Origin: Kordiimonas laminariae
Lineage (GTDB): Bacteria > Pseudomonadota > Alphaproteobacteria > Sphingomonadales > Kordiimonadaceae
Reading direction: 5' to 3'
Assembly (NCBI RefSeq): GCF_023008165.1
Contig: NZ_JAKQZA010000006.1
Location: 124,001 to 188,000 of the forward strand
DNA: 64,000 bases
In this document: positions 10,410 to 36,675 of the stretch, piece after piece
Position numbering within the stretch: the first letter of the stretch is position 1
How the letters are laid out: each line of letters starts with the position of its first letter
Notes under the pieces: generated by a model
The model's input: only the letters and a program-made list of their open reading frames with translations
The model's database searches: none
What the model was told of the DNA's origin: nothing
Program-made: the position numbers and the translations under genes

Positions 10410-10707
10410 AGTGTTTCTCCTCGCTATCATAGCCACTTGTATCTGTCGTAATTTATTTTAAGTGCAGTTTTCTGCTGTATTGAACATAATCACTCAGATA
10501 AGGATTTTAAGGGCCAATGCGACGAATGGGTGGAAATTCAGGCTGTATAGATAAACCCTAAACGTGCGTTTATAACGATATGGTCAAAAACGAAACAAGA
10601 CCTTCACAAAAGCCCCTTAGAAGAAGCGTGAACAAGCTTATTGCAGGCACTCTCAAGCTGTGCCATAGGTCTAAATTAAACAATAAAGAGTATAGAGGGG
10701 AGCAATC

Positions 10708-12201
10708 ATGCGCGTTAAATCGCTTCTTATAGCATCAGCTTTATCAAGCAGCCTGCTAATCACGCCTGCATCAATAGCACAGGAAGTAACTAAAGATCAT
10801 ATTGGGACTACTCAATCCTGGCTTGAGCAAGGGGAAAAAGCAATCGCTGACCGTCTCGCCCAAAAACCAAACACAAACCGTGCTAAAAATGTTATTCTGT
10901 TTGTAGGTGATGGCATGGGTATTTCCACACTCACTGCCGGTCGTATTCTGGAAGGTCAATTGAACGGACAACCAGGCGAGGAAAACTATCTAAGCTTTGA
11001 ACGCTTCCCGAACACCGCCCTCGTAAAAACATATAATGTAAATGCTCAGGTAGCAGATTCAGCTGGGACAGCCTCCGCACTGAATACCGGCACCAAAACC
11101 GAAATTGGTGTCATTAACACCGCTCCCAATCACCCAAATGGTATCTGCAAAGGCATGGAAAAAGATGCCCCTAAAACGCTGGCTTACCTCGCCGAACAAG
11201 CTGGTATGAGTACAGGGATTGTCAGCACAGCACGCCTCACACACGCAACACCGGCTGCCGTTTTCGCTATTAGCCCAAGCCGGGGCTGGGAAAATGATAC
11301 TGAACTTACCGAAGAAGCCATTCAGAACAAATGCACAGACATCGCGAGCCAGATTACGACAGACCTAGACGGTAACGGCCTTGAAGTAGCCCTTGGTGGA
11401 GGCGCCCGGAATTTCCTTCCTTCTTCAGAAGGAGGTAAACGTGAAGATGGCCGCAATATAGTTACAGAATGGCAAAATAAATTCGAAAAATCAGCGTATG
11501 TAACAAACCGAGCGGAACTTCAGGCAACAGATATTTCTGGCACCGACCATCTTTTCGGTTTGTTCAGCAGCTCACACATGTCTTTCACTCTTGAAGAAGC
11601 TCAGGATGAGCCAACTTTGGCAGAAATGACAGAAACAGCCATTAAAATGCTATCCAAGAATGACAATGGTTATTATCTCATGATTGAAGCAGGTCGCATT
11701 GACCACGGTCATCATGGCGGTAATGCCAACGCAGCGCTGAATGACACTGTTGCTCTTTCATCAGCTGTAAAAAAAGCGTTGGAACTTGTAGATACAGAAG
11801 AAACGCTCATTCTGGTAACTGCTGATCACAGCCACACATTTACCATGGCGGGTTACCCAAAGCGGGGTAATCCTATACTCGGACTGGTGTCTGGCCCTGG
11901 TCAGGAGGACGGTGAATATACGATGGCTAAGGATGGTAAGCCATACACAACAGTTGGATACCAAAATGGCCCCGGAGCTATTGAGGGCGAACGTGCGCAT
12001 CTTACAAATGAAGATACGCATCACCCTGAGTTTCAGCAGCAAGCCGCAATTCCTCTTTGGTCAGAGACCCATGGTGGGGAAGATGTCGCTCTTTTTGGAA
12101 TAGGCCCTTGGTCCCATCTGGTAAAAGGTACAATGGAGCAGAACGTAGTATTCCATATTATGAACCATGCACTAGGTCTGAAAGATCGTACTCAAAATTA
12201 G
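10708..12201 (+). CDS. phoA: Alkaline phosphatase (PhoA family)
   Basis: 497 residues. Signal peptide ending near SIA-QE (about residue 24); metal-binding NVILFVGDGMG; nucleophile Ser118 within ADSAGTASA; IEAGRIDHGHHGG and TADHSHTF supply the zinc and magnesium ligands. Periplasmic phosphomonoesterase (EC 3.1.3.1). AGGGGAGC lies 7 bases before the ATG. No obvious Pho box was seen, so phosphate control cannot be claimed. The C-terminal THGGEDVALFGIGPWS segment holds the last zinc histidine. Followed by a terminator. Confidence 0.93.
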   Translation: MRVKSLLIASALSSSLLITPASIAQEVTKDHIGTTQSWLEQGEKAIADRLAQKPNTNRAKNVILFVGDGMGISTLTAGRILEGQLNGQPGEENYLSFERFPNTALVKTYNVNAQVADSAGTASALNTGTKTEIGVINTAPNHPNGICKGMEKDAPKTLAYLAEQAGMSTGIVSTARLTHATPAAVFAISPSRGWENDTELTEEAIQNKCTDIASQITTDLDGNGLEVALGGGARNFLPSSEGGKREDGRNIVTEWQNKFEKSAYVTNRAELQATDISGTDHLFGLFSSSHMSFTLEEAQDEPTLAEMTETAIKMLSKNDNGYYLMIEAGRIDHGHHGGNANAALNDTVALSSAVKKALELVDTEETLILVTADHSHTFTMAGYPKRGNPILGLVSGPGQEDGEYTMAKDGKPYTTVGYQNGPGAIEGERAHLTNEDTHHPEFQQQAAIPLWSETHGGEDVALFGIGPWSHLVKGTMEQNVVFHIMNHALGLKDRTQN

Positions 12202-32753: not shown

Positions 32754-33587
32754 TTAAAAGAGCCAAACAACACCAAAGAAGGAGGAAAATTGTACACGTT
32801 CACCAACTTCACTGCGGGTGATTGTGCTGTCCGCTGCACTGTTTTTAAGATCAGACAGGCGCACGGTACCTTTAATAAGCCAGTTTTTCCCTAGTCGTTG
32901 TTCAACGGCGGCTTCAGCATACAGTTCGTATATACCGGCTTTCGCTCGGAACGGTTCGAAAAGAACACTATCTTCCTCAACACCAAAAAACACCTGATTA
33001 AATTTCTGGGAACCCCAGTTCGCACCCACAATAGGAGTAACCCTCAAACCTGAATTCAGCTCGAATGTATATCCCATTTCGGCTTCGATATTGGAACCAC
33101 GGTGTGCACCGCTTACTCCCCAATAGGCTTCTGCACTTAGGAACAATTTATAAAATGAGGTCCCTGCGAAAGCACCTAATTCAAATGTATCCAGTGTTTC
33201 GCCAGAATTAATATCAGCAACCAGATCATTAGCGCGCCCCAAATTCCAACGAGCAATAGGCCCAGCCCTTAGAAAGCGGCTTTTATAGAGCGCAACACCT
33301 GCCCTGTCACCTTCGATAAAAACCGTATCATTCCAGGTTACATTAATATCTAATGTTGCTTGAACATCATATCTGCTTGAGCCAATAAACTGCGGAGCCA
33401 GACCAAGACCGAAACCGATTTGCCCACCCCAACGATCTTTTTTTCGTTCCGTTTCCAGCTCAACAGATTCTATGTAATTAGGTTTACCAATAGTGGTAGA
33501 TGCTGTCTGCCCATAAGCAGATGTACTTATGAAAACCAAAACCACCAGCACACAAACGTGCCACAGGGTTGATCTTACCGGCTCCAT
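32754..33587 (-). CDS. MipA/OmpV-family outer membrane protein
   Basis: 277 residues. Signal peptide VCVLVVLVFISTSAYG, then alternating beta strands ending in an aromatic residue (FFGVVWLF), as outer membrane barrels do. RWGGQIGFGLGLAPQFIGSSRYDVQATLDINVTW matches MipA/OmpV. The start overlaps the end of the upstream hydrolase gene by 13 bp, so the two are coupled. Confidence 0.85.
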   Translation of the reverse strand: MEPVRSTLWHVCVLVVLVFISTSAYGQTASTTIGKPNYIESVELETERKKDRWGGQIGFGLGLAPQFIGSSRYDVQATLDINVTWNDTVFIEGDRAGVALYKSRFLRAGPIARWNLGRANDLVADINSGETLDTFELGAFAGTSFYKLFLSAEAYWGVSGAHRGSNIEAEMGYTFELNSGLRVTPIVGANWGSQKFNQVFFGVEEDSVLFEPFRAKAGIYELYAEAAVEQRLGKNWLIKGTVRLSDLKNSAADSTITRSEVGERVQFSSFFGVVWLF

Positions 33588-34606
33588 ACAGCTTCCCTCT
33601 CACCTTGAACTGATGCACCCAATTTATAGTGCACTTCATATCCTAAGTGATCGGAAAGTGGTTTTCCATCAAGAAGTTCGGTAAAATTCCGGGTAATATA
33701 AATTGGCTTCATGCCAATCCCTGCCCCATCATAATAGAACTGCTTATCATTGGTTTTATAGAGAATTTCTTCAACTCGCGTTTCTGCGCTCAGCGCACAG
33801 TCCATAGTGCCACGTACACAGATCTCAGCAGAGTCTTCTGCCTTAATCGCATTTCGGAAATATTCGTAACGTGGTGTATATTTCGTATTAAAATCGCCTG
33901 CAATAATCTGGGAGTTTCCCTGATCGGTCTTTTCAAGGAACCACTGCAAAGTTTCCACTTGCGCCTTATGGGCTTTTGTCTTTGTTTTTGTTGGCGCCAC
34001 CGCTGCACGGTGAGAATTGAAGTGGGAATTAATAACATCCACAGGGCTATCAACACCGGGTACTTTAACCCTAGCCAACAGGATTGATTTGTTCGAAAGG
34101 CAATCAAAACCCGCGCACATATCTGAATCAAAGGCTTTGTGTGTTGCTTCTATAATCGGGAAATCTGAGAGAATATAAAGGCCACTGCCCAACAACTTCT
34201 GAGGATCAGAAAAGCTTGTATAGGTTTTTCGTGTGTTCGTTGACCAATGGCTTTTACCGCGCTTTGAAGTATCCTTCCGCCCCGGTCCTTTAAGCACATA
34301 TTTATAGCCAGTATTTTCTGCAATGATTGATACATCATTCACAAATGCTTCTTGCAGCAACACAATATGCGGCTGCGTACCTTCCGCCCGACGCTCACGA
34401 AGAATTTCTGCAATACGCTCAAAATACGGCTCTTTGCCGCCTCTAAGCATATTAGGTAAGCCTTGAACATTATAGGAAAGAACACGAAGTGAATCGATGC
34501 TGGTGTTCTCCGCAACAGGATGCGGAGCCGCAACATCAGCAACGCTGTTCGCTGCTGCCTCACAAGAAATCAATGCCAAAAGGCCTGCAAGAATAACTGG
34601 TTTCAT
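33575..34606 (-). CDS. secreted endonuclease/exonuclease/phosphatase-family hydrolase
   Basis: 343 residues from ATG 34606 (AGGTAGAG upstream; GTG 34609 is the alternative). Signal peptide ILAGLLALISCEAAA. EEP-fold motifs: LRVLSYNVQGLP, HIVLLQEAF, HFNSHRAAV, IAGDFNTKYTPR, SDHLGYEV. The extracytoplasmic location and fold fit a sphingomyelinase C-like phosphodiesterase or a secreted nuclease; the choice cannot be made by eye. Co-transcribed with the MipA/OmpV barrel. Confidence 0.85.
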   Translation of the reverse strand: MKPVILAGLLALISCEAAANSVADVAAPHPVAENTSIDSLRVLSYNVQGLPNMLRGGKEPYFERIAEILRERRAEGTQPHIVLLQEAFVNDVSIIAENTGYKYVLKGPGRKDTSKRGKSHWSTNTRKTYTSFSDPQKLLGSGLYILSDFPIIEATHKAFDSDMCAGFDCLSNKSILLARVKVPGVDSPVDVINSHFNSHRAAVAPTKTKTKAHKAQVETLQWFLEKTDQGNSQIIAGDFNTKYTPRYEYFRNAIKAEDSAEICVRGTMDCALSAETRVEEILYKTNDKQFYYDGAGIGMKPIYITRNFTELLDGKPLSDHLGYEVHYKLGASVQGEREAVWSR

Positions 34607-35000
34607 CACTCTACCTATTTAAACTGCTTATCTTAATAAACAGGAAATTTGGAACCTAGGTGACAGTTACATGGCAGAAATAAGACAGTCATTATTATAA
34701 GCGTAACGCGCTCATACGTAGCGTAAACAACAAAAAATCACCGCGCCAGATGATTACAAGATCAATCTAGTGTCATCCCCACAAACTACGAATACGACAC
34801 TCCCGCAACTGTAAACCATTGATCAATTTGAAAGGTGCCCAATGGACTTTTTTATGCTCAATGCACACAATTTACCGCCCCTTCGAATTTTATAATTACT
34901 ATACAATGATGAACAAAAATCATTGACTCCATTAATTACCGACCTCAACTTTCTATCGCAATAATTGCTAAATTATACCTTAAATTACATAGGAGATTTT
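34607..35000. other. gene-free stretch at left edge of the island
   Basis: The 394 bases hold repeat copy A (34694-34748) and an AT-rich leader upstream of the precursor gene. TATAAT occurs at 34891-34896 without a convincing -35. No credible gene was seen on either strand. Confidence 0.6.
34694..34748 (+). repeat. 55-bp direct repeat, copy A
   Basis: Matches 36309-36363 at 53 of 55 positions (differences at repeat positions 15 and 45). It starts ATTATAAGCGTAAC and ends CACCGCGCCA. Copy B lies at the tRNA-Glu terminator, and copy A carries only the same half of that terminator. The two copies bracket the AT-rich island. Confidence 0.9.
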
Positions 35001-35207
35001 ATGTCTGGCCAAATTCAAGAATTAACATTTGATGAAATTGACTCAGTAACTGGTGCTAGGGGTAAATTATGTAGTGTAGCATATAGTGCGCTTGAGGGCT
35101 TTCTTGTAGAACAAGTTATATCAAGAGGTGCAGACTTTATTGAAGCTTTGGGTAGGCTAGAGCCACACAGACCATGGCATGAATTTGATGCCAAAGTAAG
35201 AGGTTAG
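35001..35207 (+). CDS. microcin-like ribosomal peptide precursor
   Basis: 68 residues with AGGAGA 6-11 bases before the ATG. The N-terminal 18 residues, MSGQIQELTFDEIDSVTG, match the Gly-Gly/Gly-Ala leaders of class II microcins and related Gram-negative peptides (colicin V leader: RTLTLNELDSVSGG). Cleavage after Ala19 would release a core of 49 residues, RGKLCSVAYSALEGFLVEQV onward, with one Cys and an amphipathic middle. The next gene encodes a CPBP membrane protease. No ABC exporter lies nearby. The leader is seen; bacteriocin activity is inferred. Confidence 0.7.
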   Translation: MSGQIQELTFDEIDSVTGARGKLCSVAYSALEGFLVEQVISRGADFIEALGRLEPHRPWHEFDAKVRG

Positions 35208-35214
35208 AACCCAA

Positions 35215-35237
35215 GTGGGGTGCACCTTGTACCCCAC
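35215..35237 (+). other. hairpin between precursor and CPBP genes
   Basis: GTGGGGT-(9)-ACCCCAC, eight pairs counting an inner G-U. No T-run. It could attenuate read-through, giving more precursor than protease, as is common in bacteriocin cassettes (inference). Confidence 0.6.
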
Positions 35238-35255
35238 AATACTCAGAGAGGGATT

Positions 35256-35771
35256 ATGCAAATCAAAAATATTTCTAAACTGTTAATCGCACCACCATAC
35301 AAAAATACGATTAAATTAGCGACAATTTTAGCTGTAGTGATGGTAGTATTCAATACCACACTAGATGTACTTGGTTTACAATCTTCTGGTCGGGAAGTTG
35401 ATTTATCAGTTGGTTGGAGTGTTTTAATACTAGCGGTTATTATAGCACCTATTATTGAAACATTTATATATCAATTGCTGGTGATAACGATTGCTAAAAG
35501 CTGGAAATTATCTGACAAGATATCGGTATCAATTTCTGCTCTAGTATTTAGCTATGTTCATTTCATCAACACAAAAATATCAATTTATATGTTTATTGAA
35601 ATGCTTCCCTTTGCGGGGTTTGGTTATGTATTGGGCTGGGTGTATTTAATTAATAAGCAACGCGCAGGAATCAGAGGCGGCTTTGTAAGCACTGCATTAC
35701 TTCATGCTCTATACAATGGTATCCTATTTACAATTGCCAGTGGTTTATTGTGGTTGGCAGAAATGATTTAA
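35256..35771 (+). CDS. CPBP-family intramembrane metalloprotease
   Basis: 171 residues from ATG 35256 (AGAGAGGG upstream). Four or more hydrophobic segments. Motif 1 reads APIIETFIYQ (the ETxxxQ variant of EExxxR), motif 2 FSYVHF (FxxxH), motif 3 HALYNG (HxxxN). CPBP proteins process or give immunity to bacteriocins in several systems. The gene follows the precursor by 48 bp on the same strand. The role, maturation or self-immunity, is inferred from context. Confidence 0.82.
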   Translation: MQIKNISKLLIAPPYKNTIKLATILAVVMVVFNTTLDVLGLQSSGREVDLSVGWSVLILAVIIAPIIETFIYQLLVITIAKSWKLSDKISVSISALVFSYVHFINTKISIYMFIEMLPFAGFGYVLGWVYLINKQRAGIRGGFVSTALLHALYNGILFTIASGLLWLAEMI

Positions 35772-36240
35772 GAGCTGCCTTCTTTTTTAGCCACCCATAT
35801 ACTCTAGCTTCAACTATAAAACCTTTATAATCATATCAGAAACTAAAAACACCAAAATCAAAATTGCTCCTAACAAAGCTCGATTCTAAGTGTATCTACA
35901 TCTATAACTTCTTGCTCTAAGATGACTAACTGTAATCTGCCGTCTTTAGCGCCCAAATAACTGTATAGTTGAGATTCCCACGATCTTTCAAAAAAGTACA
36001 CACCTGAACTTTTAGCGCCAGCACCATCTTTCAATTTAGAACGTACATTTTGGAGGTTTTGTTCGAGCCAGACAACCTTCTTTTAGCTTCACTGAGAAAG
36101 GCTGTCTTACAAAAGAAAAACAGCCAACAACGCAGATTTCCATACAACAATGACTTTTTCCAAGGTAGTTTAGAGAGGTACTATGAAACTACTAGAAATC
36201 TTCTAACTCTCTTGAAAATATTAGCTACTTAGCTTTGACT
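35772..36240. other. AT-rich stretch without a secure gene
   Basis: About 470 bases between the CPBP gene and the tRNA remnant. It contains an open minus-strand frame without a start codon (35870-36082) and a plus-strand frame (36050-36232) with only a TTG start; nothing else stands out. Confidence 0.55.
35870..36082 (-). pseudogene. possible gene fragment in the island
   Basis: On the minus strand an open frame of 70 codons runs from an upstream in-frame TAA (36083-36085) to TAG at 35870-35872. It has no ATG near its beginning. The translation includes VVWLEQNLQNVRSKLKDG, then GVYFFERSWESQLYSYLG and VILEQEVIDVDTLRIELC, with the mixed composition of a real protein. It may be the tail of a decayed gene. 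The family is not recognised. Confidence 0.3.
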
Positions 36241-36306
36241 TGATGATCCTAAGAGAATCGAGACCGTGTTTCCGCCACGAAAAATTTGCGACCTAGTCCG
36301 AGGGCC
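36241..36306 (-). pseudogene. decayed tRNA-Glu copy
   Basis: Aligns with the three intact tRNA-Glu genes: TGATGATCCT for TGGTGATCCC, then ATCGAGACC for CTCGAACCC, an identical CCGTGTTTCCGCC core, and GCGACCTAG for GCGTCCTAG. The anticodon region is altered (AAAAATTTGCG in place of GAAAGGGCAGCG) and the 5' arm is shortened. It cannot fold as a tRNA. It directly abuts repeat copy B. Confidence 0.78.
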
Positions 36307-36308
36307 AC

Positions 36309-36363
36309 ATTATAAGCGTAACACGCTCATACGTAGCGTAAACAACAAAAAAGCACCGCGCCA
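36309..36363 (+). repeat. 55-bp direct repeat, copy B
   Basis: 53 of 55 identical to copy A. It overlaps the tRNA operon terminator up to the loop, placing the repeat boundary inside the terminator hairpin. Confidence 0.9.
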
Positions 36364-36381
36364 TAAGGCTGCGGTGCTTTT
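36347..36381 (-). terminator. terminator of the tRNA-Glu operon
   Basis: On the minus strand AAAAGCACCGC-(11)-GCGGTGCTTTTTT, about 10 bases after the last tRNA. Confidence 0.9.
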
Positions 36382-36390
36382 CAGTTTGGC

Positions 36391-36466
36391 TGGTGATCCC
36401 TACGGGACTCGAACCCGTGTTTCCGCCGTGAAAGGGCAGCGTCCTAGGCCACTAGACGAAGGGACC
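36391..36466 (-). tRNA. tRNA-Glu (UUC), third in the transcript
   Basis: 76 bases with encoded CCA. Acceptor GGTCCCT/AGGGATC, anticodon loop CCTTTCACG with anticodon TTC, T-loop GGTTCGAGTCC. Identical to the two upstream copies. Confidence 0.97.
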
Positions 36467-36498
36467 ATGCCAGTATATTCAAACTTAAGACCATTGCT

Positions 36499-36574
36499 TG
36501 GTGATCCCTACGGGACTCGAACCCGTGTTTCCGCCGTGAAAGGGCAGCGTCCTAGGCCACTAGACGAAGGGACC
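36499..36574 (-). tRNA. tRNA-Glu (UUC), second in the transcript
   Basis: Identical 76-base sequence, separated from its neighbours by 32 and 25 bases. Confidence 0.97.
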
Positions 36575-36599
36575 ATTCAAGCAATCAGGTCAAAGACTT

Positions 36600-36675
36600 T
36601 GGTGATCCCTACGGGACTCGAACCCGTGTTTCCGCCGTGAAAGGGCAGCGTCCTAGGCCACTAGACGAAGGGACC
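36600..36675 (-). tRNA. tRNA-Glu (UUC), first in the transcript
   Basis: Identical 76-base sequence, nearest to the promoter at 36698-36726. Confidence 0.97.

Follow-up and report, generated by a model that had tools for sequence, protein, structure and literature searches.

A microcin-like precursor gene paired with a CPBP gene at a variable site beside tRNA-Glu genes in Kordiimonas laminariae

A precursor gene and a CPBP gene lie between two direct repeats

The DNA analysed here, a stretch of 64,000 nucleotides from Kordiimonas laminariae (the window), is located in contig C24 of a 3.65 Mb genome in 27 contigs. It contains the following features:

33575..34609, minus strand: endonuclease/exonuclease/phosphatase-family gene ("PDE"), left flank of the variable site
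34694..34748, plus strand: 55-bp direct repeat, left copy
35001..35207, plus strand: precursor gene, 68 aa, with AGGAG at 34991-34995
35001..35057, plus strand: double-glycine-type leader MSGQIQELTFDEIDSVTGA
35058..35204, plus strand: predicted core peptide of 49 residues, assuming cleavage behind the leader
35215..35237, plus strand: possible RNA hairpin between the precursor and CPBP genes
35256..35771, plus strand: CPBP (Rce1-like) membrane protein gene of the PF02517 family, 171 aa, probable immunity protein
about 36241..36299, minus strand: decayed tRNA-Glu-like stretch, just inside the right repeat
36309..36363, plus strand: right copy of the 55-bp repeat, which overlaps a hairpin of the tRNA operon that resembles a terminator
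36391..36675, minus strand: three tRNA-Glu genes (36391-36466, 36499-36574 and 36600-36675)

The anatomy agrees with a preliminary description of this DNA, which had reported a 68-residue frame with a microcin-like leader and a CPBP gene behind it, both in AT-rich DNA between two repeats at tRNA-Glu. The GC content of 34749-36308 is 36.9%, compared with 45.7% for the whole window, and the two repeat copies are identical at 53 of 55 positions. The precursor and CPBP genes are on the same strand with a gap of 48 bp, both frames are intact, and a purine-rich stretch precedes each start. Two promoter-like sites were found upstream of the cassette against 5.7 expected, and a search for a terminator-like site belonging to it found none. 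The possible hairpin between the two genes does not stand clearly above chance (z -1.47; 15 of 200 shuffles as good). A 54-aa ORF on the minus strand between the repeats (35870-36034) is perhaps a gene remnant.

The precursor carries a double-glycine leader

The precursor ORF bears ELTFDEIDSVTGA, and its leader reads GQIQELTFDEIDSVTGA and ends in SVTGA. Counted from the GA site, Ile-15, Leu-12, Glu-8, Ile-7 and Val-4 match what we take to be the consensus positions of double-glycine leaders. This leader is beyond chance. When a strict leader pattern was combined with a size filter, the precursor was the one ORF in the window that passed, and the strict pattern gave no hit in 60 second-order Markov sequences of window length or in the 118,158 bases covered by 13 genus loci at this site. 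A looser pattern gave one hit in the window, compared with a mean of 0.15 across 20 Markov sequences. The 68-aa ORF thereby has the GG/GA leader of a class II microcin precursor.

The predicted core, which begins with RGKLC and would have a mass of about 5.5 kDa, has a net charge of 0 and no hydrophobic segment, and it matched none of the Pfam and NCBIfam models. It has one stretch with amphipathic character, a value reached in 3.3% of 1000 shuffles. The precursor was absent from 28 other genomes of the family, and plasmids yielded only two chance-level matches (E 6 and 8). Compared with precursors from exporter loci, its best matches had E values of 0.02 or worse, and the core had no detectable or convincing relative among the precursors compared.

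The CPBP protein departs from the first family motif

The 171-aa protein belongs to PF02517 (E 1.6e-8; 35.2 bits, cut-off 22.4) and has two hydrophobic stretches at the threshold applied. Its motif 1 reads ETFIYQ in place of EExxxR, with the first Glu retained; FxxxH and HxxxN are present as FSYVH and HALYN, so that the conserved Glu, both His and the Asn remain in place. EExxxR is found in all 11 readable CPBPs among the 13 others of this genome (two were unread, and two of the rows read represent a single ORF), and it is also retained in CPBPs linked to exporters on contig C21 and at L082, L143, L159, L175 and L164, loci that are described below. In G019 and in a Pseudohongiella MAG, the exporter-linked CPBP has ETIIFQ as motif 1; the G019 protein is 30% identical to that of the window. 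The occurrence of ET..[FY]Q in these two proteins suggests a retained subtype rather than decay; however, the window protein is only weakly similar to that of Pseudohongiella (E 0.007), and a common ET-type subtype is thus unproven.

Neither a search with the single protein nor one with a four-row alignment found the window CPBP in 384 other genomes of the class. One of 397 other genomes of the phylum (G700) has two copies, with motif 1 reading ETLIFC and ETLLYF and no leader ORF near either on the stretch examined. No relative was found in plasmids, phages or genome_contigs with the single protein, or in viral_contigs with the alignment. A sequence comparison with solved structures gave no match at E up to 1 either. 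A part in anti-phage defence was considered and rejected: PADLOC had no match for the precursor or the window CPBP, and the single match of the CPBP on C21, to a 2TM effector model, was weak (E 0.005).

The interval between PDE and tRNA-Glu is a variable site

A 28-base core of the repeat occurs at only these two places in the genome, even with up to three mismatches allowed. In its right part, the repeat supplies one arm of the terminator-like hairpin behind the tRNA genes, which is retained in the sister genome G023; the left part aligns, more weakly, to the PDE flank of G023. Since its halves match the tRNA terminator and the PDE flank of a relative, the 55 bp look like the joint of both old flanks, which would have been duplicated on arrival of the cassette. 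Direct repeats flanking a segment beside a tRNA gene are what an integrative element would show. No integrase, transposase or recombinase was recognised between the repeats, where short ORFs were judged by eye and family-library searches covered only the precursor and the CPBP. The decayed tRNA-Glu-like stretch reached a local score of 70, compared with a best of 48 in 990 random comparisons.

Both neighbours, PDE and tRNA-Glu, are present on 11 of the 13 genus loci fetched, 0.2 to 4.8 kb apart; seven of these 11 have an ORF of at least 120 aa between them and four do not. The gene content of the site was read in six genus loci. The PDE of G023 is 94% identical to that of the window genome, yet its site is filled by a gene for a 1099-aa repeat protein (L025 4946-8245) of RTX-like appearance; its different content rules it out as a relative of the window island. 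Because relatives carry other content there, the interval is a variable site in the genus.

The island had been described as mobile-looking, and a repeat-bounded variable site makes mobility plausible; however, an empty site with a single repeat was not seen in the relatives, as G023 has another insert and the other genus members are too diverged.

A C39 exporter is encoded on another contig

A search of the genome for Peptidase_C39 gave one match at E up to 0.01, away from the window on contig C21. This locus (L041) is arranged as follows:

L041:6591-7838: HlyD homologue, corresponding to the membrane fusion protein
L041:7928-8122: leader peptide
L041:8148-10367: C39-peptidase ABC transporter (PCAT), 739 aa
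L041:10424-10564, 10627-10815 and about 10860-11009: three further leader peptides
L041, ending at 11741: second CPBP gene

Cys24, His97 and Asp113 of the transporter, a catalytic triad assigned by motif rather than by alignment to CvaB, are invariant in eight aligned exporters. The genome thus encodes the PCAT with C39 Cys/His/Asp that a class II microcin requires, off the precursor locus. The earlier statement that the pair lacks its own exporter holds for the DNA beside the two genes, but not for the genome: the exporter puzzle is largely resolved by C21, where a C39 exporter match is accompanied by an HlyD homologue, a second CPBP and four leader peptides.

The block behind the C21 transporter gene has a GC content of 36% and no DNA match in G023. 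The G023 transporter is 98% identical to that of C21 over 699 residues, and a different block with another leader peptide lies behind it. Given this low GC content and replacement, both the window cassette and the block on C21 have the look of exchangeable AT-rich modules that carry a peptide and a CPBP.

QIQELT.DEI is common to the window leader and one C21 peptide (L041:10627), and QIQEL...EID to the window leader and a G023 peptide (L069:7699). When 66 leaders from exporter loci were ranked by likeness to the window leader, the G023 peptide came joint second and the C21 peptide sixth. The leader of Sphingorhabdus wooponensis (L162) outscored both, and those of a Sphingomonadaceae MAG (L142), G028 (L083) and Alkalimonas (L169) also stood above the C21 leader. 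Leader likeness thus fits the C21 exporter without proving it, and the assignment rests more strongly on this exporter being the sole C39 match found.

Further orphan candidates came from searching 19 genus genomes with a six-row leader profile that included the window, C21 and G023 leaders. One is a 76-aa ORF on contig C22 of the same genome (at about 129.9 kb; L207 ORF 1495-1725; E 0.04) with the double-glycine-like leader MIIQELKYDETNLVAGG, followed by a gene that we take to resemble ribosomal protein S4. Two are in G023, far from its exporter locus (L204 ORF 1429-1665 and L206 ORF 1477-1707; E 0.01 and 0.5). Separately, G025 has three similar tandem leader peptides near a PCAT gene (L185, 1501-2045), whose cores start with FICAGVCV, FVCGGLCI and FICGGLCI.

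Peptide and CPBP genes recur together

There are 14 PF02517 genes in the genome, two of which, on C21 and in the window, have a leader ORF within 1.5 kb. To survey the family, 20 regions were fetched among 25 exporter matches, some of them only 29-32% identical to the C21 exporter, and CPBP genes were scanned for in 19 fetched regions plus C21. Three of these 20 Kordiimonadaceae exporter regions contain a CPBP (C21, G019 and G003), and in two of the 19 regions other than C21 it lies directly upstream of the PCAT gene on the same strand:

L081 (G019): peptide 1586-1921, CPBP 1994-2560, PCAT from 2913
L082 (G003): peptide, CPBP, PCAT in this order

Among named PCAT loci, the best 80 of at least 530 confirmed ones were scanned, a non-random sample in which an ORF with the C39 motif was recognised in 74. 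The CPBP profile comprised eight rows from the genome itself (plus strand; at least one possibly in a wrong frame) and six A1 rows. Six of these 80 loci have a CPBP, and in five it stands immediately before the PCAT gene on the same strand, with a gap of -37 to 78 bp:

L143, Rheinheimera lutimaris: CPBP before PCAT, leader ORF upstream
L159 and L175, two Glaciecola MAGs: CPBP before PCAT, leader ORF upstream
L164, Natronospirillum MAG: CPBP before PCAT, no leader ORF found
L181, Pseudohongiella MAG: CPBP before PCAT, leader ORF upstream
L169, Alkalimonas amylolytica: two CPBPs farther off from PCAT

In four of the five loci with CPBP before PCAT, a leader ORF lies 51 to 562 bp upstream of the CPBP, which repeats the peptide-then-CPBP order of the window at four gammaproteobacterial loci; L159 and L175 are 88.6% identical and thus not independent. 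Leader counts are lower bounds, since the loose pattern missed two leaders that were read by eye (L069:7699 and L081:1586). No CPBP was found in 74 of the best 80 of at least 530 confirmed loci, and CPBP is thus at most an optional partner of exporter loci.

These data bear on whether the two window genes are merely unrelated neighbours in an AT-rich variable region. With 14 CPBP genes in the genome a chance encounter is conceivable, but the order of peptide then CPBP on one strand recurs at seven other loci (C21, L081, L082, L143, L159, L175 and L181, two of them related as noted), and we regard mere adjacency as very improbable. Direct searches for homologues of the two window genes, described above, yielded almost nothing.

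The CPBP protein probably protects the producer

In Gram-positive Abi/CPBP systems, a CPBP gene lies next to a double-glycine bacteriocin gene, as in the window pair; the window differs in the bacteria concerned and in having ETFIYQ rather than EExxxR. Such Gram-positive proteins give bacteriocin self-immunity (Kjos 2010, as cited in PMC9298176 and PMC4462113). By this analogy, and because the CPBP gene occupies the usual place of an immunity gene and the genome has an exporter able to remove leaders, we favour the window CPBP as the immunity protein of the producer.

A different role is suggested by streptococcal CAAX proteases. SilX, encoded beside a bacteriocin, aids bacteriocin production and confers no immunity, which makes it a counter-example to CPBP immunity, and SagE is said to cut a leader (both from PMC9298176). 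Likewise, the window CPBP could be a protease that processes the peptide or a peptide signal, and the peptide a signal rather than a killer; the kept Glu, His, His and Asn positions would suit this. On the other hand, EExxxR and FxxxH are described there as required for catalysis (PMC9298176) and motif 1 is degenerate in the window protein, a C39 exporter able to remove the leader exists in the genome, and the cassette showed no regulator-like ORF. We consider a processing role unlikely.

Somewhat more doubtful still is that the cassette is a remnant, with a peptide that is unexported or inactive and a CPBP that is a passenger or protects only against the peptides of neighbours. The absence of any other recognisable gene in the cassette, the decayed tRNA-like stretch, the departure from EExxxR and the lack of the precursor in 28 family genomes and of the CPBP in 384 class genomes would all agree with it. 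Against it stand the two intact frames with their purine-rich stretches. In addition, ET..[FY]Q is shared with the CPBPs of two other exporter loci, which points to a kept subtype.

Discussion

Our results suggest, with reasonable rather than high confidence, that the two genes form a class II microcin-like cassette, horizontally gained, with a CPBP that most likely protects and with export through the C21 system in trans. In this model, the cassette would make a precursor with a double-glycine leader and no adjacent exporter. The C39-peptidase ABC exporter on C21 and its HlyD partner would carry the precursor out in trans, cleavage after the GA site would release a 49-residue peptide, presumably antibacterial, and the CPBP membrane protein would most likely shield the producer. 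The cassette itself would have been acquired horizontally into the variable site beside the tRNA-Glu array. Several observations weigh against this model: the core has no detectable relative; the leader fails to single out its own exporter, with C21 ranking sixth of 66; EExxxR is missing from the window CPBP; CPBP genes are common (14 here) and none was found in 74 of the best 80 PCAT loci; a streptococcal CAAX protease gave no immunity (PMC9298176); and there is no excess of promoter-like sites upstream.

According to PMC9746304, production of class II microcins requires a PCAT, a membrane fusion protein and TolC in addition to the precursor and its immunity protein. The immunity proteins have 51-216 aa and no obvious mutual similarity. 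Few of these microcins have proven activity, most of them being from E. coli, and one export system is reported to be shared in two microcin pairs. The window pair resembles class II microcins of the colicin V type in its GA-type double-glycine leader, in the small membrane-protein gene adjoining the precursor, and in the C39 PCAT and HlyD-type protein encoded in the genome. It differs in that the exporter is on another contig, the putative immunity protein is a CPBP, and the core is unmatched by Pfam and NCBIfam. A Gram-negative cluster with a GG-motif bacteriocin and a CAAX protease has been published for Aliivibrio wodanis pAWOD920; likened by description only, it includes an exporter and mceI/mceJ-like genes, whereas the window pair stands alone (PMC4462113). 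The preliminary description had found no described type to match the pair. A match to a described kind is nevertheless possible, since the genome has an exporter of its own, peptide-CPBP-exporter clusters recur in other genera, and the A. wodanis cluster has been published (PMC4462113). The pair looks like known parts combined in an unusual way, not like a system of a new kind. In the collection of papers searched, none joined class II microcins with CPBP. New here are a precursor-CPBP cassette that lacks an exporter and sits at a variable site next to tRNA genes, an ET-type CPBP, and the finding that the pair recurs in several gammaproteobacteria as well as in Kordiimonadaceae.

It is tempting to go further and suppose, tentatively, that one chromosomal PCAT serves scattered exchangeable precursor cassettes (the window, the C21 block and perhaps the C22 orphan) with CPBP immunity partners. 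The ET..[FY]Q CPBPs might then be a bacteriocin-linked subtype whose protease centre is altered or lost and which protects by another mechanism. We hold this as possible, and not as the expected outcome.

A recurrent peptide-CPBP pair would offer a searchable handle by which to find immunity genes of alpha- and gammaproteobacteria. Where cassettes lack an exporter, mining by exporter distance overlooks part of the repertoire, and a CPBP subtype without EExxxR makes the need for proteolysis in CPBP immunity testable.
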